DNA from: Acidobacteriota bacterium
Lineage (GTDB): Bacteria; Acidobacteriota; Blastocatellia; Pyrinomonadales; Pyrinomonadaceae
Assembly (NCBI GenBank): GCA_003222975.1
Contig: QHXN01000014.1
Span: 29,642 to 93,641, forward strand
Direction: 5' to 3'
DNA length: 64,000 nucleotides
The position numbers and the translations under genes are program-made. The notes beneath the pieces were generated by a model. That model searched no databases. It had not been told where the DNA came from and saw only the letters and a program-made list of their open reading frames with translations. Shown piece after piece: positions 7,337 to 64,000 of the stretch. Every line of letters begins with the position of its first letter. The stretch's first letter is position 1.

Positions 7337-7382
7337 ACCGTCCCACACTTCGGGTTGACTGCTCATCGCCGCCCCGAACGAA

Positions 7383-7431: not shown

Positions 7432-7488
7432 CTTACTGGTCTCATCGCTAATGGCTCACTATGCACGTGGCCGTGTGCTCACCCGGTC

Positions 7489-18410: not shown

Positions 18411-18450
18411 TCCCCCTGTTCGCTCTTCGGCAAAGCCGATGCTTATGTGA

Positions 18451-23637: not shown

Positions 23638-25680
23638 TTACGGCCATTCGCCGACGGTAAAAATGCCGTTGCCCTCCGTCCCTCCGTAGATTGCCGTCGG
23701 ATCATGCGGGTCGACGGCCAGGGTCAAGACATAATGTGCGGTCACTAGCGTCTTAACTCCCACCCAGGTTTTTCCCGCATCCTGGCTCTTAAAGACGCCT
23801 TGGTCGGTGCCCGCGTAAACCGTCCGGGCGTCCTTGGGATCAAAGGCCAGGGAGAGGACCCAGTGGTTGCCCAGCGCAGTGGCGGACCAACTCTTTCCCT
23901 TGTCTGTGCTTTTGAAGACCCCGCCGCTCGTCGAGGCGTCGGAGAAATCCCCGGAACCGACATAGAGTGTGCCGGAATCCTGGGGGTCAATTATCAAGGC
24001 CCTGACGCGCCGATCCGTCAATCCGGTGTTTACCTCTGACCAGGTTTTAGTGCCGTCGCTGCTCTTGAAAACTCCGCCGTCCGTCCCGGCGTAAACCGTC
24101 TCCGAGTCGTTGGGATCAACCGCCAGCACGAAGATGGGTCGCGGATGCATCAACTGTTGAATGGGGGTCACGCCGGCGACGTTCTCGTTGATCGCCCCGC
24201 GGCTGACGTCGGCCCAGGTCGCGCCTCGGTCCGTGCTCCTGAAAATTCCGCCGCCGTCCGTGCCGACGTAGACCGTGCCGTCACGGTGCGGGTCAATCGC
24301 GAGCGAGAAGACGCGCCGCCGGATGGTTCCCGCGCCGATCTGGACCCAGCTTCGCCCGCCGTCAGTGCTCTTGAAGACGCCCCCGGCTGAGCCGAGGAAC
24401 TGCTCTTGCGCGCCGACGTAGAGCGTCATCGGGTCTGTCGGGTCCACGACGAGAGCTTTGATGACAGGGTTGCGCAGGCCCGTGTTGATACTGGCCCAGT
24501 TCCGCCCCCTGTCGGCGCTCTTGAAGACTCCGGCACCCGCCGTCCCGGCATACAGCGTAGCCGAATTCCGTGGATCAACGGCCACCGCGAATACTACTTG
24601 GTTGGCGAGCGGAGCCGGAACCGCCCGCCAGCTTTGCCCGCCGTCGGTGCTCCTAAAGACACCGCCGCCCAGCGTCCCGGCATAAATAGTCTGCGGGTGT
24701 TGCGGGTCAATGCTGAGAGGCCAAACGATTCTATTGCTCAACCCGGCGCTGGCCTCCGACCAGTGCTGCCCCCGGTCAGAACTCAGAAAGACCCCTTCGC
24801 CCGTGCCTGCGTAAACGGTCTTGGGATCGCTCGGGCCGACCGTCAGCGAGAAGACGAGTTGCTGGGACAAAGTGTTCGTCGGCGGAGCCCAGTGCCTGCA
24901 TCCGTCGTCACTCTTGAAAATTCCTCCGCTCGTCCCGGCATAAACCGTCGCGGGATTATCCGGGGCGACCGCTAACGAGTAAATCCGGCGGTTTGTCAGG
25001 CCCTCGTTGCTCTCAGACCAGCGGACGCCGCCGTCCTCGCTCTTAAAGACCCCCCCGCCGAATGTTCCGGCATACAGCGTCTGCGTGTGATGCGGGTCAA
25101 CGGCGAGGGGCCAGATTACTAGGTTGGTTAGTCCGTCACTGGCTTTCGACCAAGTGCGCGCCCCGTCGGTACTCTTGAAGACCCCGCCGCCCGCCGTCCC
25201 GGCATACAGCGTGCCCGGAGACCGCGGATCGGGAACCAGCGACCAGACATCGCGGGTAGTTAACCCCGCGTCGGCCTCTGACCAGCTATTCGCCCCGTCC
25301 GTGCTTTTGTAAATGCCAACGTGCGTCCCAGCATAGATGACTCGCGAATCCGCGGGATCAATTACCAACGGCATTACGGTCAAGTCATTCAGCCCCGTGT
25401 TCGCAGGCGTCCAGTTACGGCCCCCGTCGGCGCTCTTGATGATGCCGCCGCCGTGGAGGCCAACATAGATGGTGTCGGTACGACGAGGGTCAATCGCGAT
25501 GCTGAAAGCCCAGCCCCCCGGCGGGCCGGAGCACCCCGGGCTCGGCGGCCCGCCTGCCGGGCCGCCACCCGTCGCGCCGGCTGTCCGCGCTGTCCCGCCG
25601 CATAACCCGACCGTTAAAAGTCCCACTAACAAGGCACCGAGTAACGCTCGGACGGATGTTTTTTCGTGCACGACGTACAC
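23638..25680 (-). CDS. Exported BNR/Ycf48-like beta-propeller repeat protein
   Basis: 680 aa; about 13 repeats of GGVFKSTDGGRSW...GLTNxxVxxLxVDPxxxxTLYAGT. Confidence 0.88.
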   Translation of the reverse strand: MYVVHEKTSVRALLGALLVGLLTVGLCGGTARTAGATGGGPAGGPPSPGCSGPPGGWAFSIAIDPRRTDTIYVGLHGGGIIKSADGGRNWTPANTGLNDLTVMPLVIDPADSRVIYAGTHVGIYKSTDGANSWSEADAGLTTRDVWSLVPDPRSPGTLYAGTAGGGVFKSTDGARTWSKASDGLTNLVIWPLAVDPHHTQTLYAGTFGGGVFKSEDGGVRWSESNEGLTNRRIYSLAVAPDNPATVYAGTSGGIFKSDDGCRHWAPPTNTLSQQLVFSLTVGPSDPKTVYAGTGEGVFLSSDRGQHWSEASAGLSNRIVWPLSIDPQHPQTIYAGTLGGGVFRSTDGGQSWRAVPAPLANQVVFAVAVDPRNSATLYAGTAGAGVFKSADRGRNWASINTGLRNPVIKALVVDPTDPMTLYVGAQEQFLGSAGGVFKSTDGGRSWVQIGAGTIRRRVFSLAIDPHRDGTVYVGTDGGGIFRSTDRGATWADVSRGAINENVAGVTPIQQLMHPRPIFVLAVDPNDSETVYAGTDGGVFKSSDGTKTWSEVNTGLTDRRVRALIIDPQDSGTLYVGSGDFSDASTSGGVFKSTDKGKSWSATALGNHWVLSLAFDPKDARTVYAGTDQGVFKSQDAGKTWVGVKTLVTAHYVLTLAVDPHDPTAIYGGTEGNGIFTVGEWP

Positions 25681-25796
25681 TCCCTCGCTTGTCGCGCAAG
25701 CCGGACGAGCGTCGCCAAGCTTCCGCGGTTCCCCAGCCTTATACAGCCGCCCTCGCCGCTGCAGAAGACGGCGGCAACGAAGCCCCTCCCATACGA

Positions 25797-28094
25797 TCAG
25801 AAGTACCAGGCGAAGGCGACGCTGCCGAGATGATTTCTGGTGGGACTCGGATAAAAATAGCCTCCGAATCTATCGTTGACCACGATGTAGGAGGAGTATT
25901 GATCGTTGAACAGATTGTTCACGCGGTAGAGTAGCCGCAGGCTGAACCGTTTGAAGTAGCGGTCGTAGCCCCCGTACCAGTTCGCCACCTGGTAACTATT
26001 ATTTGCCACCGTGTTGGCGTCGTCGGCGAAAATTTTTCCGACCGCCTGCAAATCCAATCCGCTGTACAGACCTGAGTGGTGCGCGTACCTCAGGCTTGCG
26101 AAGAGGCGATTGACGGGGATGCCAGGGATCCTTCTCCCGCTGAAGTCCCCGAAGCCGTTGACGAATCTTCTGTAATAAAAGTCGGAGTAAGTATACCCGA
26201 CTCGCAGGCTCAGATCCTTGTAGAGGTTGGCTCCTCCGCCCAGCTCCAACCCGTTGTGTATCGCCTGCGCGGCGTTGATGAAGGTCTCCTGCGGAAAGCC
26301 GATCCCAGTCGGGACGATCTCGTCATTCACCCGCAACCGGAAGAGAGAGAAATTGAGGTAGACTTTCCGCGGCAGGGTGTAGAGCCCGCCGATCTCGTAG
26401 CTGGTTGAACGCTCCGGCCTGAGGTCAGGATTCAGTCCGCCCTTACCCTGCGGGTTCCGGCCAATCTCGGTGATCGTCGGCGGGTCGAACCCGGTGCTGA
26501 CGTTCGAGTAGAGCGAGAACGCCGGCTTGAAATGATAGGTCGCGCCGAACTGGTAGCTTAGTTTATCGAACAATCTCTCCCCGGAATCGTTGCCGTCGGT
26601 GAGCAGAAAGTCATCTATCCGGACGTGGACGCGCGAGTAGTTCAGCCCTATCCTGAAATCAAGCTTCTCGGTGATCCTCATGCTGTCAAGGAGGTAGAGG
26701 CCCGTGTTGTAGAGCCTACGGGTCTCGTCTCGCTGAACGCCGGCGCCCTTCGTCCCGGCGTTATTGTCGAAATCCTTTCTGGCCTCGTGATCATGCTGAA
26801 GTTCCGCGCCGAGGGTAAAAGTGTTCTTCGTCTTTCCGACCGCCCGCTTGAAGGAGTACCTCACGTCGCCGCCGAAGGAGTTTCTCTGCCCGTTGAGAAA
26901 GACGAAAGGGACCGGGACCTGAAAATTGAGGTGGCGGAAGTAGAACATGGCCGACAGAGACTTGTCATCACCCCACTGCCGATTGAAGTTCGTCCCGAAT
27001 TGCTCACGCGTGATGTTGCTCTGCGCGTCGAAGAGTTTGAAGAGGAAGCTGGCCTGTCGGCGGTCGGCCCGCAACTCCGCGGCGGACAAATTGCCGGGCA
27101 ACTGGCTCGCCGTGTCCGCCGTCCTGAAGAAGAAGGTCAGCCCGGAGCGCTCCCCCAGCTTCAGGTCGAGGCGGCTGTTGAGGTGGTAGGCGCGCAAGTT
27201 TTCGTGCTCGCGGTAGCCATCTTTGTCGGTGCGGGTAAAATTCAGGAGGTAATTGAGGCGCTTATAATTCCCCGATAGCTTGCCCTGGTTTTTCCAGAAG
27301 CCATAACTACCGAAGAGGGTCTTGGCCTCGATGAAGGGTACGGCGGAGCCTTTTTCCGTAATCACGTTGACGACGCCGCTCGAGCTGGCCCCATACTGCG
27401 CCGCCATAGGCCCTTTTACAATTTCCAGTCTCTCGGCGGAGTCCAGATCAATGCCCGTCAGGTCGGAGGTCTCGCCGGTTGAGTCGCTTTCGGGGATGCC
27501 GTCAACCAGCATCCTGATACTCCTGATTCCGAAGCTGGTGTTGAGACCCCGCCCGCGAATCGAAATCCTGACTTCCTGCGTTTCAGCCTGACTCTCGGCT
27601 TTGACCCCGGGAATTTCATTCAGCGCCTCGTCCAGCCCGACGGCCTTGGTCACTGCGAGCTCCCGGTCCGTGATTACGCCGACGCTCTGGGTGAGATCTT
27701 CCATCGGCTCCGGCTGGCCGCTGGCCGTGACGATCACCTCCTCTCTCAGCACCGGCTCGACGACCATCAGAAATTCGACCGGCCTCGACTCCTGCTCGGA
27801 GACCTTAACGCGCTCCTTCAAAGTTTTATAACCGAACGCGGAGATTTCCACCGAATAAGTCCCCACCGGCAGGCCGGGGAAACTGAAATCTCCCGCCGCG
27901 TCAACCTCAGCAGTCTTTCCGATCTCGACGATGGTGACGGTCGCGCGGGCGACGGGGGTGCGTCCGTGGGCATCAAGCACTTTGCCGACGAGTTTGCCGG
28001 TTCTGACCGCCGCGCCGGCCGCGGCGGAAAAACTCGCGGACGCTAAACAGAAGGCGAGCGCAATCAGGCGGGAGGCGATCCTTTTTCTGTTCAT
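25797..28094 (-). CDS. TonB-dependent receptor with carboxypeptidase-regulatory-like N-terminal domain
   Basis: KLVGKVLDAHGRTPVARATVTIVE; plug ITDRELAVTKAVGLDEALNEIPGVKAES... RSIRMLVDGIPESD; aromatic C-terminus NHLGSVAFAWYF. Confidence 0.92.
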   Translation of the reverse strand: MNRKRIASRLIALAFCLASASFSAAAGAAVRTGKLVGKVLDAHGRTPVARATVTIVEIGKTAEVDAAGDFSFPGLPVGTYSVEISAFGYKTLKERVKVSEQESRPVEFLMVVEPVLREEVIVTASGQPEPMEDLTQSVGVITDRELAVTKAVGLDEALNEIPGVKAESQAETQEVRISIRGRGLNTSFGIRSIRMLVDGIPESDSTGETSDLTGIDLDSAERLEIVKGPMAAQYGASSSGVVNVITEKGSAVPFIEAKTLFGSYGFWKNQGKLSGNYKRLNYLLNFTRTDKDGYREHENLRAYHLNSRLDLKLGERSGLTFFFRTADTASQLPGNLSAAELRADRRQASFLFKLFDAQSNITREQFGTNFNRQWGDDKSLSAMFYFRHLNFQVPVPFVFLNGQRNSFGGDVRYSFKRAVGKTKNTFTLGAELQHDHEARKDFDNNAGTKGAGVQRDETRRLYNTGLYLLDSMRITEKLDFRIGLNYSRVHVRIDDFLLTDGNDSGERLFDKLSYQFGATYHFKPAFSLYSNVSTGFDPPTITEIGRNPQGKGGLNPDLRPERSTSYEIGGLYTLPRKVYLNFSLFRLRVNDEIVPTGIGFPQETFINAAQAIHNGLELGGGANLYKDLSLRVGYTYSDFYYRRFVNGFGDFSGRRIPGIPVNRLFASLRYAHHSGLYSGLDLQAVGKIFADDANTVANNSYQVANWYGGYDRYFKRFSLRLLYRVNNLFNDQYSSYIVVNDRFGGYFYPSPTRNHLGSVAFAWYF

Positions 28095-48517: not shown

Positions 48518-51229
48518 ATGAGTAAGCTTACCCTTCCCCAGCTAGAACGACATCTCTATAAAGCCGCAGATCATCTGCGGGGCAAGATGGACGCCTCGGA
48601 GTATAAGGAGTACATCTTCGGGATGTTGTTCCTTAAGCGGTGCTCCGACGTGTTCATGGAGCACCGCGAGCGGCTGATTGCCGAGAAGAGGGCGGCGGGG
48701 TGGACTGATGAAGATATTGCGGCGCGTCTGGAGATGCGCGCTTTTTATCCGGGCATCTTCTTCGTGCCCGAAGTGTCTCGCTGGGAGTATATCAAGGCGC
48801 ACCAGCACGAGGACGATCCGGGCGACGTGCTGAACCAGGCGCTGCTCAACCTAGAGCGGGAGAACATCAACACGCTCAAGGGCGTGCTCAGCCACATCAA
48901 CTTTAAGCCGCCGGGGAAGAATAAGCTCACCGAACAGCAGCTACGCCAGTTCATCAAGCACTTCAACAAGAGGCGGCTGCGCAACGAGGATTTCGAGTTC
49001 CCCGACCTGCTCGGCGCGGCCTACGAATTTCTCATCAAGCAGTTCGCCGACTCAGCCGGGGCGAAGGGCGGCGAGTTCTACACGCCGCGCGACGTGGTGC
49101 GCCTGATGGTCGAAATACTCCAGCCGCAGGAGCACAAGCGCATCTACGACCCGGCTGTCGGCTCGGGCGGCATGCTCATCATCTCGAAGCAGTACGTCGA
49201 GGAACACGGCGGCGACGCGAGCGACCTGAGCCTGTTCGGGCAGGACGAGAACGTCGGCGTGTGGGCGATCTGCAAGATGAACATGATCCTGCACGGGATC
49301 ATGAACGCAGACATACAGAGCGGCGACGTCATCACCAGCCCGAAGCACGAACACGACGGCGAGTTAATCCGCTTCGATTACGTGATTAGCAACCCGCCCT
49401 TCAGCAAGGGTTATTCCAGGAAGGACATGCAGCACGACTGGCGCTTCAGGCACGGCTTCGCCCCGGCGAAGGGGAAGAAGGGCGACTTGATGTTCGCGCA
49501 GCACATGCTCGCGGTGCTGGTTCCCAGCGGGCGGATGGCGACGGTGATGCCGCACGGCGTTCTGTTCCGCGGCGGCGACGAGAAGAAGATTCGCAAGGGC
49601 TTCATTGACTCGGACGAGCTTGAGGCGATCATCAGCCTGCCGCCGAACCTGTTCTACGGGACGGGCATCCCGGCGTGCGTTCTGGTGATGCGCGCGCGGC
49701 TGCTCGACTCGTCGGGCAAGCCGCGGGGGCGTCGCGGTAAGATTCTCTTCATCAACGCCGACGCCGAGTACGCGCAGGGGCGCGCGCAGAATTACCTGCG
49801 GCCCGAAGACATTCAGAAGATAGCCACGACCTATCACAGGTTCGAGGACGTGCACGGCTATGCGTGCGTCGTCACACGCGCGCAGATAGCGAAGGAAGAT
49901 TACAACTGCAACGTCCGGCGCTACGCGGACAACGCCCCGCCGCCTGAGCCGCACGACGTTCGCGCGCACATCGCGGGCGGAGTGCCGCGGCGCGAGATAG
50001 AGGGTAAGCGGGAGTTGTTCGCGGCGCACGGCTTCGAGCCTTTGAACGTCTTCGTCCCGCGCGGGCAGGCCGGCGTGGGCGAAGGTGCGGGCGACGCCTA
50101 CTTTGATTTTCATCCGAAGCTCGACGACAGGCGCGACATTAAGACGGCGTTGGAGGCGGACGAGAACGTCCGCGCGAAAGAGGCGCTGCTCCACCGTGCG
50201 ACGCTCGACTGGTGGGGGCAGCACAAGGCGCAGCTCTCGCAGTTGCCGGGCAGCCGCCGCTTGATGGACGTGCGCAATAAGCTCCTGAGTTCGTTCAATC
50301 AGGCCGTCGCGCCGCTCGGACTGCTCAACACTTACAAGGTTGACGGCGTGGTCGTGAGCTGGTGGAACGAGAACCAGTACGATTTGAAGGGCCTGGTCGC
50401 GCAGGGCTTCGGCGGCTTGATTGGCAGTTGGGTGGCCTCGATCCGCACGGCGTTGGAGCCGGATGAGGACGAGGACGACGAAGAGGCGCAGCGCGGCAGC
50501 CGCTACGACCCGCTCACGCACAAGCTGGTCAGGCCGCTCGTGCCCGAATACCTTGACGAGTTGAACCGCGCGGAGGCTCTGATCGCGGAACTGGAAGCCG
50601 AGAAGAGGGAGTTTGAGAGTCGCGGCAACAGCGACGCGGGCGGCGAGGGTTCTGAAGGCGAAGGGGAAGAGGCGGAGGAGGATTACGCTAAAGAGTTGGC
50701 GGACGAGTTGAAGGAGTTGAAATACTCGATCAAGCCGACGGCGGCGCGCATCAAGACGCTCGGCGGGGGGACGCGCGTGCAAGGCTCGATTGCCGCCGCG
50801 CGCCGTGCGGGTGAAGACACGGCGGCACTCGAAGCGGAGTTGGAGGCGCTGAAGGCGGAGATTGCGCCGGTCGAGCGGCGCATCGCGGAGGTTGAAGCGG
50901 AGTTGCAGCCGTACAAGGAGATTAAGGAGCGTCTGACCGCCGCGCGGCGCGAGTTGCGGGGGTTGAAGAAGCGGTTTATTGAGCGTTTGGAGGAAGCGCG
51001 GGCGCGTCTGACGGAGGCCGAGTGTGAGGAGCTTGTGTTGAATCTGCTGCGTGAAAACCTCGCGGCTTATCTGGATTCTTACATCGCGGCGCACCGGCAG
51101 GAGGTCGTCAGCGCGTTGGAAAACTTCTGGGACAAGTACCGCGTGACGCTCGGCGACATTGATCGCGAGCGAGACGCGGCGATGGCGGAATTGGAGAGGT
51201 TCGCTGCCGCGTTGGGATACACAGCATAA
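48518..51229 (+). CDS. hsdM: Type I restriction-modification DNA methyltransferase subunit
   Basis: 903 aa; [61 protein letters not shown]; extended charged coiled-coil C-terminus. Confidence 0.95.
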
Positions 51230-51274
51230 TCTGCGGCAGCCCGGTGGATTTTCCGACGTAAACGAAGTCGCTAG

Positions 51275-52630
51275 GTGAAGATGCAGGCTGAAGCCAAGTC
51301 AACAAAACTTCCCTTTGATTTACCTGATGGTTGGTCAGAGGAGCAATTGAATACTCTCGCCGATATTAATCCTGAGTCGCTTGGCGGAGGAACATCAGCG
51401 TCATTTGAGTTTCGCTATATTGATATTTCGCCCGTTGAGCACGGTGTCATCAATTGGGATGATGTTACTACTCAGACTTTCGCGGATGCGCCGAGTAGAG
51501 CAAGAAGGGTTGTGCGCCCGAAAGATACTCTTCTGTGTACAGTAAGACCTGCCTTGCAAGCGCATACATTTGCTTACTGGCAAGATAAGGATGGATTCAT
51601 TTGCTCCACTGGCTTCGCAGTGATACGCGCTAAAAATCAGAATGAGCCGCGCTACTTATATCACCAGATTTTCAGTGACTATGTTGCAGGTCAGATTCGG
51701 CGTCTTGAAATAGGCTCAAGCTATCCCGCAATAAACGAAAATGATGTCAGGTCTTTGGTTCTTGTTGTCGCGCCGCCACCTGAACAGCGCCGCATCGCCG
51801 AAGTGCTCGATGCTGTTGGCGCGGCGATTCAACGCACCGACGCGCTCATCAACAAGCTCAAGTGGATGAAGGCGGGGCTGCTGCACGACCTGCTGACGCG
51901 CGGACTCGACCGTGACGGCAAGCTGCGCGACCACGTCCGAAATCCTGAGCAGTTCAAGGACTCGCCGCTTGGATTGATTCCGAAGGAGTGGGATGTTTGT
52001 ACCTTAGAACAGTTGACAGAATCAGCAGTTGATGGCCCGTTTGGGTCGAATCTTAAAACAGAACATTATATTAATCGGCCTGAAGTGCGGGTCGTTCGTT
52101 TACAGAATATAGAGGTCGGGTATTTCAATGAGACAGACGAAGCTTACGTTTCGTATTCTCATGCTGATAAGCTTAAACGTTATGCTGTAGTAGCTGGTGA
52201 TTTGCTCATTGCCTCGCTTGGTGATGATAGACATCCCCTTGCCCGTGCTTGCTTGTACCCGTCAACCGGTCAACCGGCCATCGTTAAGGCCGATTGCTTT
52301 AGATTCCGCCTCAAATCTTCTTTAGCATTACATGCCTACGTTATGCACATGCTGAATTGTCCATCAACGCGAGGTGACATTAATCAGCGAGGTCAGGGTG
52401 TTACTCGTGACCGGGTAAATTTAACTTCTCTCAAACAAGTTCGACTGACAAAACCCTCCGTCTTAGAGCAGGGTTACATTGTTGATGCCCTTGCTGCCCA
52501 CGATGCACGCATTCGTTGCGAAGAAGCTAAGCGCGACAAGCTCATCCTAATCAAGAAAGGCTTGATGCACGACCTTCTAACCGGGCGCGTGCGCGTGCCC
52601 GTCACGAAGTCGGAGGTGGTCGCGGTATGA
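51275..52630 (+). CDS. hsdS: Type I restriction-modification specificity subunit
   Basis: 451 aa; two half-repeats, each a variable region followed by PPPEQRRIAEVLDAVGAAIQRTDALINKLKWMKAGLLHDLLTRGLDRDGKL / KPSVLEQGYIVDALAAHDARIRCEEAKRDKLILIKKGLMHDLLTGRVRV. Confidence 0.93.
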   Translation: MKMQAEAKSTKLPFDLPDGWSEEQLNTLADINPESLGGGTSASFEFRYIDISPVEHGVINWDDVTTQTFADAPSRARRVVRPKDTLLCTVRPALQAHTFAYWQDKDGFICSTGFAVIRAKNQNEPRYLYHQIFSDYVAGQIRRLEIGSSYPAINENDVRSLVLVVAPPPEQRRIAEVLDAVGAAIQRTDALINKLKWMKAGLLHDLLTRGLDRDGKLRDHVRNPEQFKDSPLGLIPKEWDVCTLEQLTESAVDGPFGSNLKTEHYINRPEVRVVRLQNIEVGYFNETDEAYVSYSHADKLKRYAVVAGDLLIASLGDDRHPLARACLYPSTGQPAIVKADCFRFRLKSSLALHAYVMHMLNCPSTRGDINQRGQGVTRDRVNLTSLKQVRLTKPSVLEQGYIVDALAAHDARIRCEEAKRDKLILIKKGLMHDLLTGRVRVPVTKSEVVAV

Positions 52631-53208
52631 GCCTGCCCTTCGACATGCCCGCGGGACTCACGCCCGAAGCCCGGCGCGAACTCGAACGCTGGGACGAAGA
52701 GCGTCGAGGACTCGTCGCCGAAATCAAAAGAATCCCGCTGCGCATTCTCGTCTGGGGGCCAAGCCCCGCTTCGCCCGGCCCCGTCGCCTTCAAGCGCGTG
52801 CAAATCCGCGACGCCCTGGTCGCCGAAGGCTTCCTCGCCGTGTTCAGCGAGATATGGGCGGGTGCCGCGCCCGGCCTGTCGCAGAAAACCAACGAGCTGA
52901 CGCAGGCGCTGACCGCCCACCTGATTATCATTCTCATCGAAGGCTCCCCCGGCGCTCTCGCCGAGATGCACGATTTCAGCAGCCGCCAAGACGTAGCCCG
53001 CAAGATGCTCGTCATGTGCCCGCGCAGGTACAGCGACGGCTACAGCATCAAAGGCGCGGGTGCTATCCTGAGCGTCGCCTTCGGCAATCTCGACTTGTAC
53101 GAAGACGGCGAGATCGAAAACTGTAACGTGCTGACGCGCGCGCTGGCCCGCGCCGTCGCGCTACGCGAAGCCGCGGCACACAGAGAGCTACGGGACATCT
53201 TGCATTGA
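52627..53208 (+). CDS. Uncharacterised Rossmann-like protein inside the R-M operon (NDT/TIR/SLOG-like by eye)
   Basis: 193 aa; RILVWGPSP... KRVQIRDALVAEGFLAVFSEIW... THLIIILIEGSPGALAEMHDFSS... RKMLVMCPRRYSDGYSIKGAG; 4-nt overlaps with hsdS and hsdR. Confidence 0.6.
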   Translation: MSLPFDMPAGLTPEARRELERWDEERRGLVAEIKRIPLRILVWGPSPASPGPVAFKRVQIRDALVAEGFLAVFSEIWAGAAPGLSQKTNELTQALTAHLIIILIEGSPGALAEMHDFSSRQDVARKMLVMCPRRYSDGYSIKGAGAILSVAFGNLDLYEDGEIENCNVLTRALARAVALREAAAHRELRDILH

Positions 53209-56200
53209 ACCAACTGGAAGCACTCGCCAAAGAGCCGCCGACACTTGAGGAGTGGCAACGCGCCGAGGCCGTTGTCAATCCGCAGTCGTCGTTCGTGCTC
53301 TGGGCGGTCAAGACGCAGTTCTGCACGCGCAGGTCAGACTTCCGCCGACACTTCGGCGACCAGCTCCCGATTGACTCGCTCCTCGGCAAGCTCGAACTGC
53401 AAGGCTTCGTCCAGCCGGACGGCGCAGACTACGCCCTGACTGCCGCCGGAGATGAAGTTGTCGCCCGCCTCGGCGAGCCGGAGATTTCCCGTTACGCCGA
53501 CCTCAAGCGCGAGGCCGCCAGCGTCGCCCAACGCTTTGACGCGGCGGACGTGACCCAGCCGGAGATCGTCGAGGACGACCCCGCCTCCAACGAGTACACG
53601 CTCGTCGAGCGCCCGCTCATCGGGCAGTTGGAAGGTCTCGGCTGGTCGTACCTTGAGGGCGACAGGTTCGTGCCGGAACTCACCGAGCGCGAAAGCTTCC
53701 GCGACGTGCTTTTGCCGAGCCGCCTGCGCGCCGCCTTGCGCCGCGTCAACCTCGACGAGAACGGACACGAATGGCTGGACGACGCGCGCATCACGCAAGC
53801 CGTCACCGACCTACAGCGGCTCGAAGGCTTCAAGTTGATAGAACGAAACGAGGCCGCGACCCGGCTCATTAACAGAGGCACGGACGTTGAAGGCACGCCC
53901 GAACGCGACGAGGGGCGACCGCGCCGCGTGCAGTTCGTTGACTTCGACCGCCCGGAGCGCAACGACTACCTGGCCGTCAATCAGTTCCGCGTTGACACGC
54001 CCGGCGGCCAGCGCCACATCGTCGCCGACCTCGTCCTCTTCGTGAACGGCATCCCGCTCGTCGTCGTCGAGTGCAAAAGCCCCGCCCTGACGAACCCGAC
54101 CGAGGAGGCCATCACCCAACTCCGCCGCTACAGCAACCAACGCACGCGCGCCGCCGGCAGCGCGGTCATGGGCGAGGAGACGACGGAAGGCGCGGAGAAC
54201 CTTTTCTATTACAACCAACTCCTCGTCGCCACCTGCTTCTTCGAGGCGCGCGTCGGGAGCGTCAGCGCCTCATACGAACACTTCCTTGAGTGGAAAGACA
54301 CTTACCCGCTCCGCGCATCGGAGGTCGCCGAGAAGCTGGGCGTGAAGCATCTGAGCAGCCAGCAGACGCTCGCCGCCGGCATGCTGCGCCCCGAACACCT
54401 GCTCGACATCGTCCGCAACTTCACACTCTTTCAGGAATCAGGCGGCAAGCGCATCAAGATCATTCCGCGCTACACGCAGTTCAGGGCGGTGCGCAAGGCC
54501 GTCGAATGCCTGACGACCGGCAAGACCCGGCGCGAAGACGGCGCGCGCGACCAGCGCGGCGGTATCATCTGGCACACGCAAGGCTCCGGCAAGTCTCTGA
54601 CGATGGTCTTCCTCATCCGCAAGATGCGCCGGATCAAAAAGCTGCGAAACTTCAAGATCGTCATCGTCACCGACCGCCGGGACTTACAAGAACAACTCAG
54701 CGACACCGCCGTGCTGACTGGCGAGACGCCTCTCGTCCCGGACGGCATCCCGGCGCTCAAACGCGAACTGCGCGAAGACAGCCCCGACATCGTCTTCGCG
54801 ATGATTCAGAAGCTGCGCCCCGAAGACGAGGCCGCGCGCCGCGAAGACGGGGCCGCCGAAGAAGAGCCGGAGGTCGAAGACTTAGGCGACAACCCCTCCG
54901 AGTCCATCCTCTTGCTCATAGACGAGGCGCACCGTTCACACGCGAGCAAGCTCCACGCCGCACTCATGAAAGCACTCCCAAACGCGGCGAAGATCGGCTT
55001 CACCGGCACACCGATCCTCATGGGCGAGCGCAAGCTCACCGAAGAGATTTTCGGGCCGTTCCTCGACCGCTACACCATCAAGCAGTCTGAGATGGATCAG
55101 GCCACAGTCCCGATTCTCTACGAGGGGCGGCGCGTCGAAGGCCAAGTCGTTGACGAGCAGAGCCTCGACTTCTACTTCGAGAGTGACTTCCGCGACCGCA
55201 CGCCGCAAGAGCGCGCCGCGATCAAGCGCCGGTTCGCCAACCAGCCGGAAGTGGCGAAGGCGCTCAAGCTGATCGCGGCCAAGGCCGACGACATGCTCCG
55301 CCACTACGTCAGCGTCGTGCTGCCGGAAGGATTGAAGGCGCAAGTCGTTTCATCCGACCGCGAGGCGGCGGTACGCTATCAGCAGGCGCTCATCCACGCG
55401 AAAGAGAGTCTGCTCGCCGAACTGGGAGGGGTTGACCCGGCGCTGCTCGAAGAAAACGACGGAAACGGCGAGCGCCTTGACGACAAGACGAAATTCCTGA
55501 TGCGCGCCTACCGGTATTCCCCGACCATCGAACGTCTGGAGTTCGGCGCCGTCATCTCCGGCACGAATAACGACCCGGAGAATTATCGCCGATGGAATAA
55601 CGCCGAATCTCATCAACGAATCATTTCGCGTTTCAAACGCGACCTCGTCAACAAAGACCCGTCTAAACAGGACGCCCTCGCCTTTCTCTGCGTCGCCAGC
55701 ATGTTAATCACCGGCTTCGACGCGCCGGTCGAAGGAGTGCTCTACCTCGACCGCTCTATGAAGGAACACGAACTCCTGCAAACCATCGCCCGCGTCAACC
55801 GCCCCTTCACGAACAAGACGCACGGCCTCGTGGTGGACTATCACGGCGTCGCGCAGAACCTGAAAGAAGCGCTCGCCGTTTACACCGCCGAGGATGTCGC
55901 GGGCGCACTGAGCAGCATCAGGGACGAGCTTCCGCTCCTGGCAGACCGGCACCGCCGCGCGCGCGCCGTCTTCGAGGCGCGCGACATCAGCGTCGGCGAC
56001 GTACAAGCCTGCGTTGATCTCCTCGCCGACGCGGAAATTCGGGCGGACTTCGTGCTCAAGCTCAAAAAGTTTCTGAAGAGCCTCAACGTCGTGCTGCCGC
56101 GCCCAGAAGCCCTGCCGTACACCGCCGACGCGAAACAGCTCGGCCTCATCAACCGCATCGCCGCGCGGCTCTACCGTGACGAGGAGATAAATCTGACGGG

Positions 56201-56834
56201 CGTCGGCGAAAAAGTACGACGCTTGATAGACGAGTACGTGGAGGCCAAAGGCATCAAAGTTGAAATCCCGCCGGTCTCGATCACAGACCCGGATTTCGAG
56301 CGCGCAGTTGATGACCACGATTCAGACCGCTCCAAAGCCTCAGAGATGGAACACGCCGCGCGCTATTACATTTCAAAGCACTACCAAGAAGACCCTGTTT
56401 TCTATAAGAAGCTCAGCGAGCGTCTACAGGAGATTCTTCGACAATTCGCGGACAACTGGGCGGCGCGCATCGAAGCGCTGCGCGAATTCACGCGCGAGAT
56501 TGCGCGGGGACGGCCTCCGAACGAGTTCGGCTTAGACCTCAAGCTGGAGGCCCGTTTCTACGACATTATTATTGAAGAGGCGGGCAAGGAGGGTGGGCTA
56601 ACCTATGCGCGGCGTGCGGAATTCGCAAAGCTGACCCTCGGACTTGTCGAACTCATCCGACGCCACCTGAGGCGCGTGGATTTCTGGCGCACTCCTTTTA
56701 ATCGTGAGGTGTTACAACAGGAGGTCGCCCTCTTGCTTGACTCCTACAGGGCGATCCCGCTCGCCAAGTGCGAGGCCGTCGCCGACCGAATTGTTGAGCT
56801 GGCCCATCAGCTCAGCACCCATCTGAAGGCATGA
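53205..56834 (+). CDS. hsdR: Type I restriction endonuclease subunit R
   Basis: 1209 aa; nuclease region LFVNGIPLVVVECKSP; Walker A GGIIWHTQGSGKSLTMVFLIRKM; LLLIDEAHRSHASKLH; GFTGTPI. TTG start overlaps the previous stop. Confidence 0.96.
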   Translation: MNQLEALAKEPPTLEEWQRAEAVVNPQSSFVLWAVKTQFCTRRSDFRRHFGDQLPIDSLLGKLELQGFVQPDGADYALTAAGDEVVARLGEPEISRYADLKREAASVAQRFDAADVTQPEIVEDDPASNEYTLVERPLIGQLEGLGWSYLEGDRFVPELTERESFRDVLLPSRLRAALRRVNLDENGHEWLDDARITQAVTDLQRLEGFKLIERNEAATRLINRGTDVEGTPERDEGRPRRVQFVDFDRPERNDYLAVNQFRVDTPGGQRHIVADLVLFVNGIPLVVVECKSPALTNPTEEAITQLRRYSNQRTRAAGSAVMGEETTEGAENLFYYNQLLVATCFFEARVGSVSASYEHFLEWKDTYPLRASEVAEKLGVKHLSSQQTLAAGMLRPEHLLDIVRNFTLFQESGGKRIKIIPRYTQFRAVRKAVECLTTGKTRREDGARDQRGGIIWHTQGSGKSLTMVFLIRKMRRIKKLRNFKIVIVTDRRDLQEQLSDTAVLTGETPLVPDGIPALKRELREDSPDIVFAMIQKLRPEDEAARREDGAAEEEPEVEDLGDNPSESILLLIDEAHRSHASKLHAALMKALPNAAKIGFTGTPILMGERKLTEEIFGPFLDRYTIKQSEMDQATVPILYEGRRVEGQVVDEQSLDFYFESDFRDRTPQERAAIKRRFANQPEVAKALKLIAAKADDMLRHYVSVVLPEGLKAQVVSSDREAAVRYQQALIHAKESLLAELGGVDPALLEENDGNGERLDDKTKFLMRAYRYSPTIERLEFGAVISGTNNDPENYRRWNNAESHQRIISRFKRDLVNKDPSKQDALAFLCVASMLITGFDAPVEGVLYLDRSMKEHELLQTIARVNRPFTNKTHGLVVDYHGVAQNLKEALAVYTAEDVAGALSSIRDELPLLADRHRRARAVFEARDISVGDVQACVDLLADAEIRADFVLKLKKFLKSLNVVLPRPEALPYTADAKQLGLINRIAARLYRDEEINLTGVGEKVRRLIDEYVEAKGIKVEIPPVSITDPDFERAVDDHDSDRSKASEMEHAARYYISKHYQEDPVFYKKLSERLQEILRQFADNWAARIEALREFTREIARGRPPNEFGLDLKLEARFYDIIIEEAGKEGGLTYARRAEFAKLTLGLVELIRRHLRRVDFWRTPFNREVLQQEVALLLDSYRAIPLAKCEAVADRIVELAHQLSTHLKA

Positions 56835-57535
56835 ATGAGCAAATGCACATTGGCGATCTCGTCTTCGCCGTGCGCCGGAGCGCGCGGCGTAAGACTATCG
56901 GCATAACCGTTGACCGTGACGGATCGCTCATTCTGCGCGCCCCCGTTGAGTGTCCGTCGGAGCAGCTTGAACGAGTCGCCAGAGAAAAACTGCTCTGGAC
57001 ATACACCAGGCTTGCCGAAAAGAAGCTACTCTTTCGACCAACTCGCCCGAAAAAGTTCATTGACGGGGAAGGCTTCTACTACCTCGGTGAGAGCTACCGT
57101 TTGTTGCTGATTGATCAGCAGTCAGGCGGGCATAGAACCGTACCTCTAAAGCTGCAAGATGATTGGTTCATGCTATGCCGCAACGAGCGTCCGCGGGCCG
57201 AGCAACACTTTATAACTTGGTACACCCGCCAAGCCCGCGGCTGGCTCAGAACGCGCGTCACACGTTTTGCCGCCCGCGTTGACGTTCAACCGCGAGCCAT
57301 AGATGTGCGCCGCGTCGGTTTCCGCTGGGGGTCATGCAGCCCTACGGGACAACTCAACTTCCACTGGCGCACAATTCTCTTGCCGCCGGAGATAATCGAC
57401 TACCTTGTCGTCCATGAGTTAGTCCACCTACGCGAGCCACGTCATAGCCTTGAATTCTGGCGTCGCGTCGAACGCGCTATCCCTGACTACCTACAGCGGA
57501 AAAATTGGCTCTCCGAGAATGGAGGCCGGATGTAA
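56831..57535 (+). CDS. SprT/YgjP-like (DUF45) zinc metallopeptidase
   Basis: 234 aa; RRVGFRWGSCSPTGQLNFHWRTILLPPEIIDYLVVHELVHLREPRHSLEFWRRVERAIPDY; 4-nt overlap with hsdR. Confidence 0.92.
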   Translation: MNEQMHIGDLVFAVRRSARRKTIGITVDRDGSLILRAPVECPSEQLERVAREKLLWTYTRLAEKKLLFRPTRPKKFIDGEGFYYLGESYRLLLIDQQSGGHRTVPLKLQDDWFMLCRNERPRAEQHFITWYTRQARGWLRTRVTRFAARVDVQPRAIDVRRVGFRWGSCSPTGQLNFHWRTILLPPEIIDYLVVHELVHLREPRHSLEFWRRVERAIPDYLQRKNWLSENGGRM

Positions 57536-57930: not shown

Positions 57931-59781
57931 TTACAACCTCGCCAACTGAGCTTGCAGCGCGGGTCGCCGCTTGTATTGCTCTTTCAATTCCCGCAAATAC
58001 TTTTGCCACTCGCTCGTGCGCCCTGACTTCGCGTAAGCGGCCTTGGCGCGCTTGAGCCAGCCGGCGGCAGCCGGATAAAGATTACTTTTCGTCTGCACGA
58101 TCAAATCTTCGGCCTGTTTGATGCTGGCGCGAATGACCCATTCCGGGCGGTGCGCGATGAGCGCCTCCGCTACCGTCTCCATGACTGTGTGGTAAGCGTC
58201 CTTTTGATCGGCGACTTTGATGGCCGCGTCCCATTCCTGCTCGAACAGCAGCACTTCGGCGAGCGGTTGTTTGTCGTAAAACTTCTCCAAAGTCGCCATC
58301 ACCGCAGATTTCAGCCGGCCCCAGCGCGCCCCCGCCAGTCGCTTGATCGTTTGATAAGTGGTGAGTGACGGGCGCTCGGAAAACGCCGCACGCCACGCTT
58401 CGAGTGCCTGCGGCCCGCGCCCCTGCGTTTCTTCGACGGGGCCGAGCCATTCGCCGAGCGCGGCTTTCCGCCCGGCGAGTTTGAGACCGCGTTCGCCGAC
58501 CCTGATCGCTTCGTCGAGGTGACCCGATTCGCGGAAGTGTTGCGCCAACAGCAAAGCCTCGTCGGCGACCGTCAGATGTTTAAGACTATACGAGACGGCT
58601 TCCGGCAGGCGACCAAGTCCGCACAGCTTTAAGGCATAGCGCAGGTGCTCGCCCTCCTTAACACACAGCGTAAGGTAGTCGTCGGTACGCCCTTGTCGCT
58701 CCAGTACGTTGAGCTTGGCGCGCGTCAAGGCTTGCTCCGTGCCGTCGTGCGACCACGGCGCGCCGAACTGATCGAAGTAATCATCCTCAAACTCCGACTC
58801 GTCCTCACTCCCTAACTCGTCTTCATCCTCATCGTCCCACTCACCTTCGTCTTCATCTTCTTCAACAGCGTGCCCCGTTGAATTCTCGCGCGGCGCTTCA
58901 TCCCAGCCACGTTCGGCAGCAGCGATGGCGACGCTCAATCCCTCCACCCCGTAGTCGCTGAGTTTGTCGTGCAGCTCATCCAGATCGCTGGCGAGGTCTT
59001 CGCGCTCATCCTCGTTCAAATCGAGACTCAAAATGACTTCGGCCAAAGTTTCACCGACGCCTGAAAAGAAATCGCCCAGTTCGCCGTTCGAGTCGTCAAT
59101 GTAGTCAAAGCCGTCGTAACTCTCCTGAATCAACGTCAGCAAAATCTGTAAGGCGGATTCGGCATCACCGGCATTAATGAACTCAATCGCGCTTCGCCGC
59201 ACGCCGTCCAGCTCCCCGACCATACCCCGGACGTGCCAGTAAGCCTCCGACATGCGCATGTGATCGAGGCTGTGCATAATGGCGCGCACGCGCCGCTGGT
59301 AGACCGCCGTGTCCACTTGTTTACGTTTGGCCGTTTTAGACTTTGCTTTGCCGGACGCGGCTGGCAAAGTGAGCGCCGCTTCGACCCAATCGTACAGGTC
59401 CGGCTGTTCGCGCAGCAGCTTCGTCACGAGCGCCAGCAACTGCTCGCGCGTGAGATCGGACAGAAGTTCTGCCGGCTCTCGACTGACGACAAACTGTTTC
59501 GGCTTCTGCGCGTAGGCCAGGAGCAGGGCGACGATGTGTTTGCAGTATCCGCCGAAATCATACGGGCAAGTGCACGTGGCCGTGCGAATGCCACCGCCGT
59601 CCAACTCGACGCGCACTTTGTAGAAAGGCGACTCGTTGCCTTCACACTCGCCGCTTAAAGTGTGGCCCCGTATGGCGGCGTTCGAGATCGCGCCGCTGCG
59701 ATAAAGCTCCCGGCCACGCTGAAAGCTCTTGTCGTTTGTGCCCGCGCGAATCACAGCTTCCGTCAGTTTGGCAATGGTCAT
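57931..59781 (-). CDS. SWIM zinc-finger protein
   Basis: 616 aa; [30 protein letters not shown] (CxC...CxH). Confidence 0.88.
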
Positions 59782-59918
59782 AACATCTACTTTCTAACGC
59801 CTGCCCAGCTCCCGCTCTCTTTTCGGGTATAGAGGTTTGACATCCGAAGGTAAGTTTCAAAGAATTCAGACGGCTCTATCCTAATGCTTTCAGCTTCGCA
59901 CTGCTACGTCCGCAAGCC

Positions 59919-61172
59919 ATGACTAACAATGTCGCTCTATCGCCTGTCCACCGGCGCGTTCTGCGGAACCAACCCATCAGCGGGCACGAGCCGGGAGCGG
60001 TGTTGCAAGATTTCGCGTCGCTGCTGGACTTCGTCGGGGCGCGTGAGATCGCCGTGAGCGGCAAGCATCAGTTATTGCCGATGTCGCTCTTAGCCGAGTT
60101 GAGCTCTCGCCTGTCGAGAACCAATCAGGTCGGCCTCAAGCGGCCTCAGCAGAAGTCGTACCCGTACATCGACGGCCTTTATCTGCTGCTGCGCGCGAGC
60201 GGCCTCTCGCTGGTGGAGAATCGCGGAAACAAACAATTTCTGTTGCTCGACGACGATGCTTTGCGGTCGTGGCACGGGCTGAACATGACGGAGCGATATT
60301 TCACACTGCTCGGCGCGTGGCTTATTCGCGCGCGCGGGGAGATTCTGGGCGAAGACCGCTACCCCTTCAGCGAACTCAGCCGGTGTCGAGATTTCGTGCA
60401 GCGCATACCGGAAGCGGGGCTGAACGTGGCCGGAGACAAACACACTGAGTCAACGATTCCCTTTCAGCCGGGGCCGCGCAACATCGCGCTGCTGGACCTG
60501 TTCGGACTCATCTCCGTGTGGCAGGGAGAGCCGGAACCGGGCCGGGCGTGGAGCATCGCCCGCATCTTCCGCAGGCCTTTCGGAGACGCGCTCCTTCGTT
60601 TGCTGTCAGACCTGTCGAGCGATGAAGTAATGCTGTGGGAGTTGCGGGGAGACCAGAGTAATGAGGCAGAGTTGTACCATGACTTTCAATCGAGACTCCA
60701 GCCGCTCTTCCCTGAATGGCGCGAGACGCTGACGCCGCCGGAACCCGCGATGAGAGACAGCTTGCACGTCTTCAAGGTCTCACTGGGAAGAGTGTGGCGG
60801 CGCGTTGCGATCCCCGGAGAGATGACGTTGGAGGCACTGAGCGAAGCCATCTTGGATGCCTTCGATTTTGATAACGATCACCTGCACCTCTTCAGGTACA
60901 GAAACCGCTTCGGCCTCTTTGAAGAGGTCAAACACCCTTACACAGAGGAATCGCCCTCGACGGCTGAGGTCAAAATCGGGGAACTGCCGCTCAGACCCGG
61001 CGCAGTGCTGGAATATCTTTTCGATTTCGGGGACAACTGGCTTTTCGAAGCGCGGCTGGAAAGACTTGAGCCGGCGGACCCGAAGATCAGAAAACCGACG
61101 GTGATTGACGGGCGCGGTCAGGCTCTGCCACAGTACCCGAACTTTGATGACGAAGGATGGGATAAGGAATAG
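59919..61172 (+). CDS. Plasmid pRiA4b ORF-3-like protein
   Basis: 417 aa; LHVFKVSLGRVWRRVAIPGEMTLEALSEAILDAFDFDNDHLHLFRY and LEYLFDFGDNWLFEARLERL. Confidence 0.85.
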   Translation: MTNNVALSPVHRRVLRNQPISGHEPGAVLQDFASLLDFVGAREIAVSGKHQLLPMSLLAELSSRLSRTNQVGLKRPQQKSYPYIDGLYLLLRASGLSLVENRGNKQFLLLDDDALRSWHGLNMTERYFTLLGAWLIRARGEILGEDRYPFSELSRCRDFVQRIPEAGLNVAGDKHTESTIPFQPGPRNIALLDLFGLISVWQGEPEPGRAWSIARIFRRPFGDALLRLLSDLSSDEVMLWELRGDQSNEAELYHDFQSRLQPLFPEWRETLTPPEPAMRDSLHVFKVSLGRVWRRVAIPGEMTLEALSEAILDAFDFDNDHLHLFRYRNRFGLFEEVKHPYTEESPSTAEVKIGELPLRPGAVLEYLFDFGDNWLFEARLERLEPADPKIRKPTVIDGRGQALPQYPNFDDEGWDKE

Positions 61173-61275
61173 TCCGACGCAAGCGCGTCTCTTGTTTACA
61201 GAACCGGGAGTGGGCGGGTCGCGTAAGGAACGAAATTCAAATCGGCGTTTCCTTCATCCTTCCTCCTCCGGTTAG

Positions 61276-61335
61276 GAACGCGCATCAGGAGGCCCGACAC
61301 ATGAATTCACGTGTCGGGCCTCCTGATGCGCGTTC
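61276..61335. repeat. Perfect inverted repeat, 25-nt arms, 10-nt loop
   Basis: GAACGCGCATCAGGAGGCCCGACAC (61276-61300) ATGAATTCAC GTGTCGGGCCTCCTGATGCGCGTTC (61311-61335). Confidence 0.95.
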
Positions 61336-61344
61336 GTGATCCTC

Positions 61345-61427
61345 TCAGAAGCTGAGCCGGAGGCCGAACTGGAAACAGTTTGGCTCAGTTCAAAGGCGAT
61401 TTAACCCTTGAGTTTTCGCTAACCTGA
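61345..61427 (-). repeat. Dispersed intergenic repeat, copy 2 (core 61364-61427)
   Basis: Core CCGAACTGGAAACAGTTTGGCTCAGTTCAAAGGCGATTTAACCCTTGAGTTTTCGCTAACCTGA matches 20347-20410; minus strand reads TEPNCFQFGLRLSF-stop. Confidence 0.9.
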
Positions 61428-61539
61428 TTTTATATGCGAAACTTGGTGGTAAAGTCTAGCCTTGAAAATCTTACTCCGGTGCAGGTTACAATCAATGAGC
61501 GAGTAAATTTTCCATGGCCGCACGACCGAACGTAAGGAT

Positions 61540-61575
61540 GCTTCAATTGAGCCACGTTCATTCAAACGTGGAAAC
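61540..61575 (-). CRISPR. Single CRISPR-repeat-like sequence, no array
   Basis: 36 nt GTTTCCACGTTTGAATGAACGTGGCTCAATTGAAGC on the minus strand: 7-bp stem CCACGTT/AACGTGG with 6-nt loop, GTTTCC start and TTGAAGC end; sits directly downstream of cas4-cas1. No second copy seen. Confidence 0.6.
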
Positions 61576-62818
61576 GTGCGAAGTAATCGCGCGCCGCCGC
61601 GCCTTCGATGCCGAGTAGCTGTTCGAGCGCTGCGGCGCGCTCCGCATCGCGGCGGGCGTAGGCGAGACGCACCAGAGTCTCGCGCGGCAGCTCGCGTGCG
61701 TTACGACGCAGAAGCGTCCGCGCGTTGCGAATCTTGCCGGAGACGAAAGCCCGCGCCAGCCGAAGACAGAACTCTTTATCGTCGGCGGCTTTGAATTGAC
61801 GGCGGCGCAGTTCTATATTTTTGTGCGGCGGCGGAGTCGTCACGGCAGTCAGCCAGCCGCCGTAAGACATATGTATGATCGGCACGTCGCGCCCCGCGAG
61901 TTCGTGGAGAGCCTGTGCCGAGAGCTGTACGTTGCCGAATAGACAGAGCTGATTTGTCTCAAGCAAACGCGCGTCGCTCACGGTCTTGCCCTTCTCGCGT
62001 ATCTCCAACACTTCGTCGCGCAGACCCACGCTGTAACCCTGCCCCTGCACATAGACCGCGAGCGCGTCGTCGCGCGCCGGAATCAGGCGGCGCGGCTCCG
62101 CCTCCGCTTTCGACGGACAGGGCAATTCGTTTTCCGCCGTGGCTTCGTCAGCAAGACCCTCGGCTGTGGCTTCGCGCAGCAGATTCGTCTCATCCGGCAG
62201 GCAGATGCCGACGAGCGAACAGCGCGGACACTTCGGCGAACGCACGAGCGGCGGAGGAATCGTCCGATTGGCTGCGACGCGACGCGCTTCTGCTATCAAC
62301 TCTCGCGTGCGCGCCACGAGTTCGTCAGTTAGCTCGACGCGGACGCGCTGATTCGTCTCCGCGAAATAAATAGCGCCCTCGTCGCACTCATAGCCATGCT
62401 CGCGCAGCAGCAAACCCTGCAAGCAGACCTGCACGCGCTCCGGCTCATACGCTCCCTCCGCCACGTCCGGCGGCGCGCCGCGCTTGTAATCCACAGGGAT
62501 CACGCGCTCGTCATCCGCCTCGATCACGTCCACACGCGCCGTCACTCCAAGCTCGTCCGAGCCGAGCAGAACGGAGCGTGCGTGCAGGCGCGGCATCTCA
62601 ACCACCTTCTCCGGCTCCGGCACGCGCCCATGCTCCTCATCCACACGCCGGTGCACGAATCGTCCGTCGAGCGTGTCCGCATTGTGCGCCCATTCGCCTT
62701 GCACATGTTCCAGATAAAACAGGCGTGGGCAGTAGGCATATTCATTAATCATCCGCGCCGGAATCTGCTCGACGCTTTCTTGATTGCCTTGATTCGTTGC
62801 TGCGGGTTCTGTCGTCAT
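61562..62818 (-). CDS. cas4-cas1: CRISPR-associated Cas4-Cas1 fusion, Cas1 part C-terminally truncated
   Basis: 418 aa; Cas4 MINEYAYCPRLFYLEHVQGEW ... CPRCSLVGICLPDE; Cas1 N-domain VYVQGQGYSVGLRDEVLEIREKGK... QLCLFGNVQLSAQAL, ending LLGIEGAAARDYFARFHV-stop before the His/Asp catalytic region. Confidence 0.88.
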   Translation of the reverse strand: MTTEPAATNQGNQESVEQIPARMINEYAYCPRLFYLEHVQGEWAHNADTLDGRFVHRRVDEEHGRVPEPEKVVEMPRLHARSVLLGSDELGVTARVDVIEADDERVIPVDYKRGAPPDVAEGAYEPERVQVCLQGLLLREHGYECDEGAIYFAETNQRVRVELTDELVARTRELIAEARRVAANRTIPPPLVRSPKCPRCSLVGICLPDETNLLREATAEGLADEATAENELPCPSKAEAEPRRLIPARDDALAVYVQGQGYSVGLRDEVLEIREKGKTVSDARLLETNQLCLFGNVQLSAQALHELAGRDVPIIHMSYGGWLTAVTTPPPHKNIELRRRQFKAADDKEFCLRLARAFVSGKIRNARTLLRRNARELPRETLVRLAYARRDAERAAALEQLLGIEGAAARDYFARFHV

Positions 62819-62938: not shown

Positions 62939-64000
62939 TCACACAGGCTCGAATAACCCCAAGCCGAAATGCGCGCCGAAGCCGAGCACGAGCGGCGCAT
63001 TAACTTCTTCGGCGAACTCGATTTCGAAGCCCGCCGTGCCGTAGCCCGTCGTGCCGTTAAAGCGGCGCGTGCGAAACTCAAGCCAGCGCACGAGCCGCGC
63101 CCCAACTTTGTAGCCTTTCAAATCTTTGTCCACATCGCTGCTGTGCACTTCTATTATTTCCGGCAACTGACGCAGGCGCGCTTCGCGCTTCAACTGCTCA
63201 ACCGGCGTGTCGCGCGGGCGCGCACCCTTCCCCGCCCCGCGCGTGGCGAAACGCGGCAGGACGAACGGCGTTACCGAGCGCCAACGCTTCGCTTTCGTAA
63301 AAATCGGTGCGGCGCCCTGAAACATCTCTTCACTGCCAAGCCCGACTAGCACCATGCGGACTTCATGCGTTGCATCGAAGCGATAAATCTTTCGTAAGCG
63401 TCCGAAAGCGGCGATATCCGCTCCGTCAAACTCTGCCCTCGCGTAGATAGTCAGGTGGTCGAGCCAGCCGTCGCCGTCTTCATCGGTCGCCAAAAAGTAG
63501 GCGTGGTTGTGATCCTTTAACGGTACGCCAGAGAGGGTCTTGCCTGTAAGCGTTTCGGAGTGTGCGGCATTTTCGATCTTCGCGCGAATATCAAACAATG
63601 CGCGGCGCACTTTCTCGCAGAACGGCAAAGTGTCCTGCACCTGCGGCAGTACTTTGGAATCAAGTGTGTAGCGTGCGACGTTCACGCGCACAGATTTCCC
63701 CTGATGCATACGCGGCGGGCATCCTTCCGAGAGCACATCCAACGGTCGCAGATAAGTCAACCATTCTGCTCCGTCAGGCGGACTAAGGTGTTTCTTGTCG
63801 CGCATCTCACCGATTTCAACGCATAACTTGCTCAATATGTCGTCAGTGCCAGCTTGCGGGACAAGCACGCGAGCCGTCGCCCAGCCTGCGAGCGATTGAC
63901 CGTTCATGTAAGGTTGACAGTTGATTTTCGCCGCGTCGAAATTTTCTTCCAATTTCATTTCACACCACGACTCGGCGCGCCCGAACGTGTTGAGTCGCTC
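62939..64000 (-). CDS. csb2: Type I-G (I-U) CRISPR-associated Csb2 (Cas5-Cas6-like), N-terminus beyond the window
   Basis: HAYFLATDEDGDGWLDHLTIYARAEFDG and LGFGAHFGLGLFEPV; frame stays open past the listed M to ERLNTFGRAESWCEMKLEENFD at the window edge. Confidence 0.8.
   Translation of the reverse strand, partial: ERLNTFGRAESWCEMKLEENFDAAKINCQPYMNGQSLAGWATARVLVPQAGTDDILSKLCVEIGEMRDKKHLSPPDGAEWLTYLRPLDVLSEGCPPRMHQGKSVRVNVARYTLDSKVLPQVQDTLPFCEKVRRALFDIRAKIENAAHSETLTGKTLSGVPLKDHNHAYFLATDEDGDGWLDHLTIYARAEFDGADIAAFGRLRKIYRFDATHEVRMVLVGLGSEEMFQGAAPIFTKAKRWRSVTPFVLPRFATRGAGKGARPRDTPVEQLKREARLRQLPEIIEVHSSDVDKDLKGYKVGARLVRWLEFRTRRFNGTTGYGTAGFEIEFAEEVNAPLVLGFGAHFGLGLFEPV

Follow-up and report, generated by a model that had tools for sequence, protein, structure and literature searches.

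A truncated type I-G cas4-cas1 gene ending in a solitary CRISPR repeat in an uncultured acidobacterium

Truncation of cas1 by a deletion beside a CRISPR array is already described: several strains of Bacteroides fragilis carry a cas1 gene truncated by an inferred single deletion (PMC5704556). Array deletions that leave the downstream repeat with its boundary intact are likewise known (PMC8047081), and in the I-G fusion of Methanosarcina barkeri the mutation of one glutamate per domain is reported to abolish the activity of that domain (PMC10504553). Here we describe a type I-G locus in which the cas4-cas1 fusion gene ends within a single CRISPR repeat, and compare it with the intact I-G locus of an Acidobacteriota metagenome-assembled genome of the same genus (G106; JAFAZX010000035.1, an 81,924-base contig).

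The locus lies in a 64,000-nucleotide stretch of DNA, referred to below as the window, which is the final 64 kb of a 93,641-base contig (C42); window position 64000 is the contig end. The contig belongs to a draft genome of an uncultured acidobacterium (153 contigs, 4.93 Mb, 92% complete), and one scan of genome contigs yielded no second genome of the window's species. The cas genes of the locus are as follows:

61562..62818, minus strand: truncated cas4-cas1 fusion (type I-G), 418 codons with the stop within the repeat; from Pfam, NCBIfam, PDB and PADLOC profiles and an alignment with nine relatives
62939..64000, minus strand: 3' part of csb2 (type I-G Cas5-Cas6 fusion), open to the contig end; from TIGR02165 and PADLOC Cas56g

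The contig breaks off within csb2. As the window ends where the contig ends, the absence of csb1, cas3 and the 5' part of csb2 falls outside the lesion: neither that 5' part nor Cas3 (queried with the N-terminal part of Cas3 from G107, a genome of the same family) has a match in the genome's own bin, and for both the contig end accounts for this, so that it carries no information on loss. The remaining csb2 sequence scores 80.7 bits against TIGR02165 (cut-off 45), giving the fusion gene the csb2 neighbour that is looked for in a type I-G locus.

The first-pass annotation had proposed that a type I-G cas4-cas1 gene is cut where a CRISPR-like repeat starts, and the reading frame, the 36-mer and their overlap all bear this out. 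The frame ends LLGIEGAAARDYFA-RF-HV-stop, its last codons and TGA falling in the repeat. The product consists of a Cas4 domain (residues ~19-208) followed by the N-terminal part of Cas1 (~255-416), and in every profile (Pfam, NCBIfam, PDB and PADLOC) the Cas1 homology ends at residue 416-417, two residues short of the stop. The I-G fusion model NF049935 matches with E 1e-150 over profile positions 2-379 of 546; because the frame is truncated, its score of 502.8 bits falls below the full-length cut-off of 560 bits. The Pfam Cas1 profile is matched over positions 1-166 of 283, and the best PADLOC match is Cas1g, which together with NF049935 identifies the Cas4-Cas1 fusion as that of a type I-G locus.

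In the alignment with nine relatives, all 94 invariant residues before the cut are retained in the window protein and all 62 after it are gone. The retained residues include Cys30, Cys197, Cys200, Cys206, Asp97, Asp110 and Lys112 of Cas4 and glutamate E405 of Cas1; those lost with the missing part of Cas1 include the histidine of YHQPRYGRP and the aspartate of LALD (H507 and D519 in G106, numbered from the start of the open frame, a few residues ahead of the start codon). The alignment thus agrees with the earlier reading that the Cas4 cysteine motifs and the Cas1 glutamate are kept while the downstream His and Asp are missing. We take these three residues, E, H and D, to be the catalytic residues of Cas1; two of the three are lost, leaving the catalytic set (Glu, His, Asp) of a functional I-G adaptation module incomplete.

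The sequence that ends the gene is a single repeat:

61540..61575, minus strand: single type I-G CRISPR repeat, GTTTCCACGTTTGAATGAACGTGGCTCAATTGAAGC; 1 copy in its own genome, 58 copies in the G106 array

The 36-mer occurs once in the window and in none of 100 shuffles. Exactly one copy is present in the genome, where a degenerate I-G repeat pattern likewise finds just one, so that an array hidden under a variant repeat was rejected. With one repeat in both window and genome, the locus falls short of a CRISPR array, which takes two or more repeats separated by a spacer. In G106, 58 copies with no more than 3 mismatches each, of which 54 are perfect, make up a tandem array (C20:20062-24229) with spacers of 35-39 nt, and variants of the repeat form the arrays of three other genomes of the family (GTTTCCACGTTCGTGAGGACGTGGCTCCATTGAAGC in G107 and G038, GTTTCCACGTTCGTATGAACGTGGCTCAATTGAAGC in G104). 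Its identification as a CRISPR repeat is therefore upheld, both by the identical array repeats beside an intact cas4-cas1-cas2 set and by these close variants. The repeat kept in the window has the GTTTCC form found in the body of the G106 array, as opposed to the GTTCCC form of the last G106 repeats. A search for a degenerate second repeat downstream of the lone one gave a borderline signal (0.6-0.8% of shuffles for one of three queries), which we rejected. A lone type I-G repeat was also observed in G107 (C57:26494-26529, minus strand; L081 6495-6530): GTTTCCACGTTCGTGAGAACGTGGCTCTATTGAAGG, matching the G107 array repeat at 33 of 36 positions, lies ~50 nt upstream of a gyrA/parC-like gene (ORF 6582-9152), at a great distance from the G107 CRISPR locus. 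For the pattern used, such a match is well beyond chance; none was seen in the other genomes searched.

The G106 locus runs in the order cas3, csx17-like, csb1, csb2, cas4-cas1 (608 aa), cas2 (97 aa), leader and array, its effector genes being named by order and resemblance. Comparison with this intact locus, one of the checks proposed at first pass, provided a full cas4-cas1, cas2, leader and 58 repeats against which to place the break; another, the search with the 36-mer, gave the single copy in the genome itself and the matches to type I-G array repeats in relatives. The window gene aligns to G106 17728-18929 with 85% nucleotide identity, and 92% amino acid identity over the shared part. 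Neither the last 199 aa of Cas1 nor any part of Cas2 has a match in the window's own assembly, whereas the same G106 query matches both in G106. No other cas1 was found in the genome, and the G106 Cas2 query recovered no cas2 there to complete a functional I-G adaptation module. The claim that the rest of cas1, cas2 and the array are absent thus extends to the whole assembly, in which one repeat remains.

The position of the break can be narrowed to a few bases:

61573..61579, minus strand: cas1/repeat junction, from blastn and codon comparison with G106

The blastn alignment with G106 cas1 stops at 61578, two bases ahead of the repeat (which starts at 61575). On the cas1 side of the join the window reads TTCGCACGTTTCCACG, against TTCGCGAGCTTCTCGC in G106, TTCTCCAACTTCGCG in G038 and TTTTCTCACTTCGCA in G107. 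It had been suggested that a GTTTCCACG-like homology drove the deletion; at the corresponding site G106 has GCTTCTCGC, which matches at 4 of 9 positions, and the other relatives differ too, so that any microhomology at the join amounts to ~5 nt at most (G-T/C-TTC). The nine-base homology is not visible in relatives, and we do not retain this part of the proposal.

The assembled sequences establish that the gene is truncated, what the repeat is, that the missing parts do not occur in the assembly, and that the sister genome has an intact counterpart. On this basis we consider it probable that a deletion, whether simple or part of a larger rearrangement, removed the 3' half of cas1 from this I-G locus together with cas2, the leader and every repeat but one. 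An illegitimate deletion, apparently involving little or no homology, would have joined cas4-cas1 at about codon 415-416 to the start of one array repeat, from which the frame takes its last two codons (H-V) and its TGA stop. The predicted product is a Cas4 nuclease domain with an inactive remnant of Cas1 attached. Its Cas4 part may still fold and have nuclease activity; the protein as a whole is presumably inactive in adaptation. Without the Cas1 integrase core, Cas2, leader and array, spacers could be neither acquired nor stored at this locus. The deletion between cas1 and the array proposed at first pass is therefore the probable course, with the loss spanning the cas1 3' half, cas2, leader and array, and without homology as its driver. 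In its favour the repeat runs on into single-copy chromosomal sequence; against it are the lack of clear homology at the breakpoint, the lack of any independent sign of decay in the retained gene, the inverted SWIM-PRiA4 block in the flank (described below), and the state of the assembly, a draft of 153 contigs with a break inside csb2. A self-targeting spacer was considered as the cause and rejected, as no G106 spacer stands out against cas1 or the window, these being the spacers of G106 and not the window's own lost ones.

The retained codons differ from those of G106 with dN 0.045-0.054 and dS 0.77-0.96 (dN/dS ~0.05-0.07), which, at the codon level, shows strong purifying selection since the split from G106, and the retained part of the gene has no second lesion. 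The break is thus young, unfixed or not real. For the same reasons the description of a decaying locus is only half borne out. Strong purifying selection would also fit a population in which the gene remains intact, and so bears on the main rival to deletion, an assembly artefact or strain mixture in which the array, cas2 and the 3' end of cas1 sit in contigs left out of the bin, cas1 having been linked to a repeat during assembly, for instance by way of a self-derived spacer copying the 36 nt of cas1 just ahead of the repeat. The draft is 92% complete, its contig ends in csb2, and cas3 and the 5' part of csb2 are not in the bin, all of which would accord with such an error. A de Bruijn join, however, needs a shared word, and none is seen, the cas1 genes of relatives sharing at most ~5 nt with the repeat; the lone repeat has only one continuation; and a 4.2-kb array of the same repeat did assemble in G106. 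TTN is the PAM of the Geobacter I-G system, and no TTN lies upstream of the 35-39 nt of cas1 that precede the repeat, at any of those spacer lengths. We therefore regard misassembly as unlikely, and the join as probably present in a living genome.

The far side of the repeat is occupied by chromosomal DNA:

61173..61539: non-CRISPR flank past the repeat, 23 unassigned nt followed by dispersed chromosomal intergenic sequence

From ~23-24 nt past the repeat the flank is 78% identical over 168 nt to G038:C191, and shorter dispersed copies occur in G021, G036, G037, G105 and at window positions 20347-20410. Its derivation from a phage, as a spacer, was considered and no match was found. The flank includes a near-perfect 60-nt palindrome (61276-61335; 30-nt arms, no loop) that forms a terminator-like hairpin. 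Since a similar hairpin stands behind the end of a TonB-receptor-like gene in G021 (L072), that of the window probably acts as a strong terminator in both directions and came along with the remnant of a gene end. The Rfam matches at the hairpin, to human-type microRNA families far below thresholds, were discarded.

Beyond the join, the locus as a whole has a composite history. The window csb2 is 54% identical to that of G107 at the amino acid level and ~30% to that of G106; its cas4-cas1 is 92% identical to G106 and 70% to G107. Judged by these identities, the locus is a mosaic of a G107-like csb2 and a G106-like cas4-cas1. A gene for a SWIM protein flanks both the G106 array (24350-26203) and the window locus (57931-59781), where it is inverted relative to cas and a PRiA4_ORF3 gene lies between. 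The SWIM-PRiA4 block (57931-61172; L083 1200-4388) is 85% identical to G038:C248 and sharp at both ends, and its inversion relative to G106 means that the whole region needs more than one event.

These features lend some support to a reading, doubtful in our view, in which the join marks one end of a larger rearrangement, by inversion or replacement of the flank, as opposed to a simple deletion: SWIM flanks both loci in opposite orientation relative to cas, the SWIM-PRiA4 block is sharply bounded, and csb2 and cas4-cas1 have different affinities. A possible though improbable course would be that SWIM lay next to the array in the ancestor, as in G106, that an inversion of the segment followed, one breakpoint falling in cas1, and that the far side was later lost. 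After a simple inversion the cas1 3' end, cas2 and the array should lie beyond SWIM, but that place is taken by a type I restriction operon; nor would such an inversion leave the break in cas1 next to a repeat oriented like the cas genes. As this reading overlaps with deletion and can include it, the likelihoods that we attach to the readings do not sum to one.

The type I restriction-modification operon (hsdM, hsdS, hsdR) occupies window positions 48518-57535; in its region lie a small ORF (52627-53208), which weakly resembles a defence protein of the nucleoside deoxyribosyltransferase kind, and one more ORF (56831-57535). The window SWIM zinc-finger gene matches the PADLOC candidate PDC-S62 (E 1.5e-22), with the PRiA4_ORF3 gene divergent from it, and the two are possibly a defence pair; the I-G array of G106 is flanked by SWIM alone, and in G104 another TPR protein lies near the array. 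In G038 (C113; L050 609-8263), a second, different I-G-like effector set appears to be flanked by what is left of a G107-like cas3 (first 161 aa) on one side and the 3' part of a G107-like csb2 on the other, all identified by resemblance. The arrangement looks like an exchange of effector modules through recombination within cas3 and csb2.

Both the repeat and the Cas4 motifs have stayed intact, and csb2 (Cas5-Cas6) is an open frame as far as it is retained, which leaves a very small probability that the solitary repeat is a functional element, either a repeat-mimic RNA (compare the viral Racrs) or a regulatory crRNA-like RNA beside a Cas4-only protein. It is conceivable, if highly improbable, that a transcript of the repeat serves as a regulatory RNA, for instance one bound by the Cas6 portion of Csb2, the locus having abandoned spacer acquisition. 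The repeat adjoins the host's own broken cas1, its flanks have no viral or plasmid match, there is no second repeat and the best downstream pseudo-repeat signal is borderline; the intactness is explicable by a young deletion without selection.

Most likely this is CRISPR decay of an ordinary kind, affecting a member of a well-known system; it is visible at base level because the sister species keeps an intact locus. It provides a base-resolved example of the joint loss of adaptation module and array in type I-G, and above all a caution for annotation, as profile searches score the window ORF as both Cas4 and Cas1 even though it no longer encodes the integrase. Should the join be real and fixed, a deletion reaching into a cas gene has had one of its ends at a CRISPR repeat.

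Among the closest known systems is the G106 locus, which shares with the window the identical 36-nt repeat, a Cas4-Cas1 that is 92% identical over the shared part, and csb2 upstream of cas4-cas1. It differs in its full 608-aa Cas4-Cas1, cas2, leader and 58 repeats, against a truncated gene and one repeat, and in a csb2 of another lineage (~30% aa) and the opposite orientation of the SWIM gene. The fusion architecture of the window protein is shared with Geobacter sulfurreducens Cas4-Cas1 (PDB 7mi4 and related) and Methanosarcina barkeri Cas4/1 (PMC10504553); residues 15-416 align to residues 7-391 of the 559 in the 7mi4 chain, and compared with both proteins the window protein is without the C-terminal part that holds the Cas1 His and Asp. 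Like type I-B of Bacteroides fragilis (PMC5704556), the locus has a truncated cas1 and has lost neighbouring cas genes, there by a single deletion according to the authors; in B. fragilis cas2 and a short array stay and cas4, cas7, cas8 and cas3 are lost, whereas the window has lost cas2 and the array and keeps one repeat adjoining cas1. A solitary-repeat RNA anti-CRISPR (Racr) is carried by a virus or other mobile element; the window repeat abuts host cas1 and chromosomal DNA, and its flanks have no phage or plasmid match. Finally, as in array contraction by recombination or slippage between repeats (PMC8047081), one repeat boundary is cleanly kept, but the other end of the proposed deletion lies inside cas1 and not in a second repeat.
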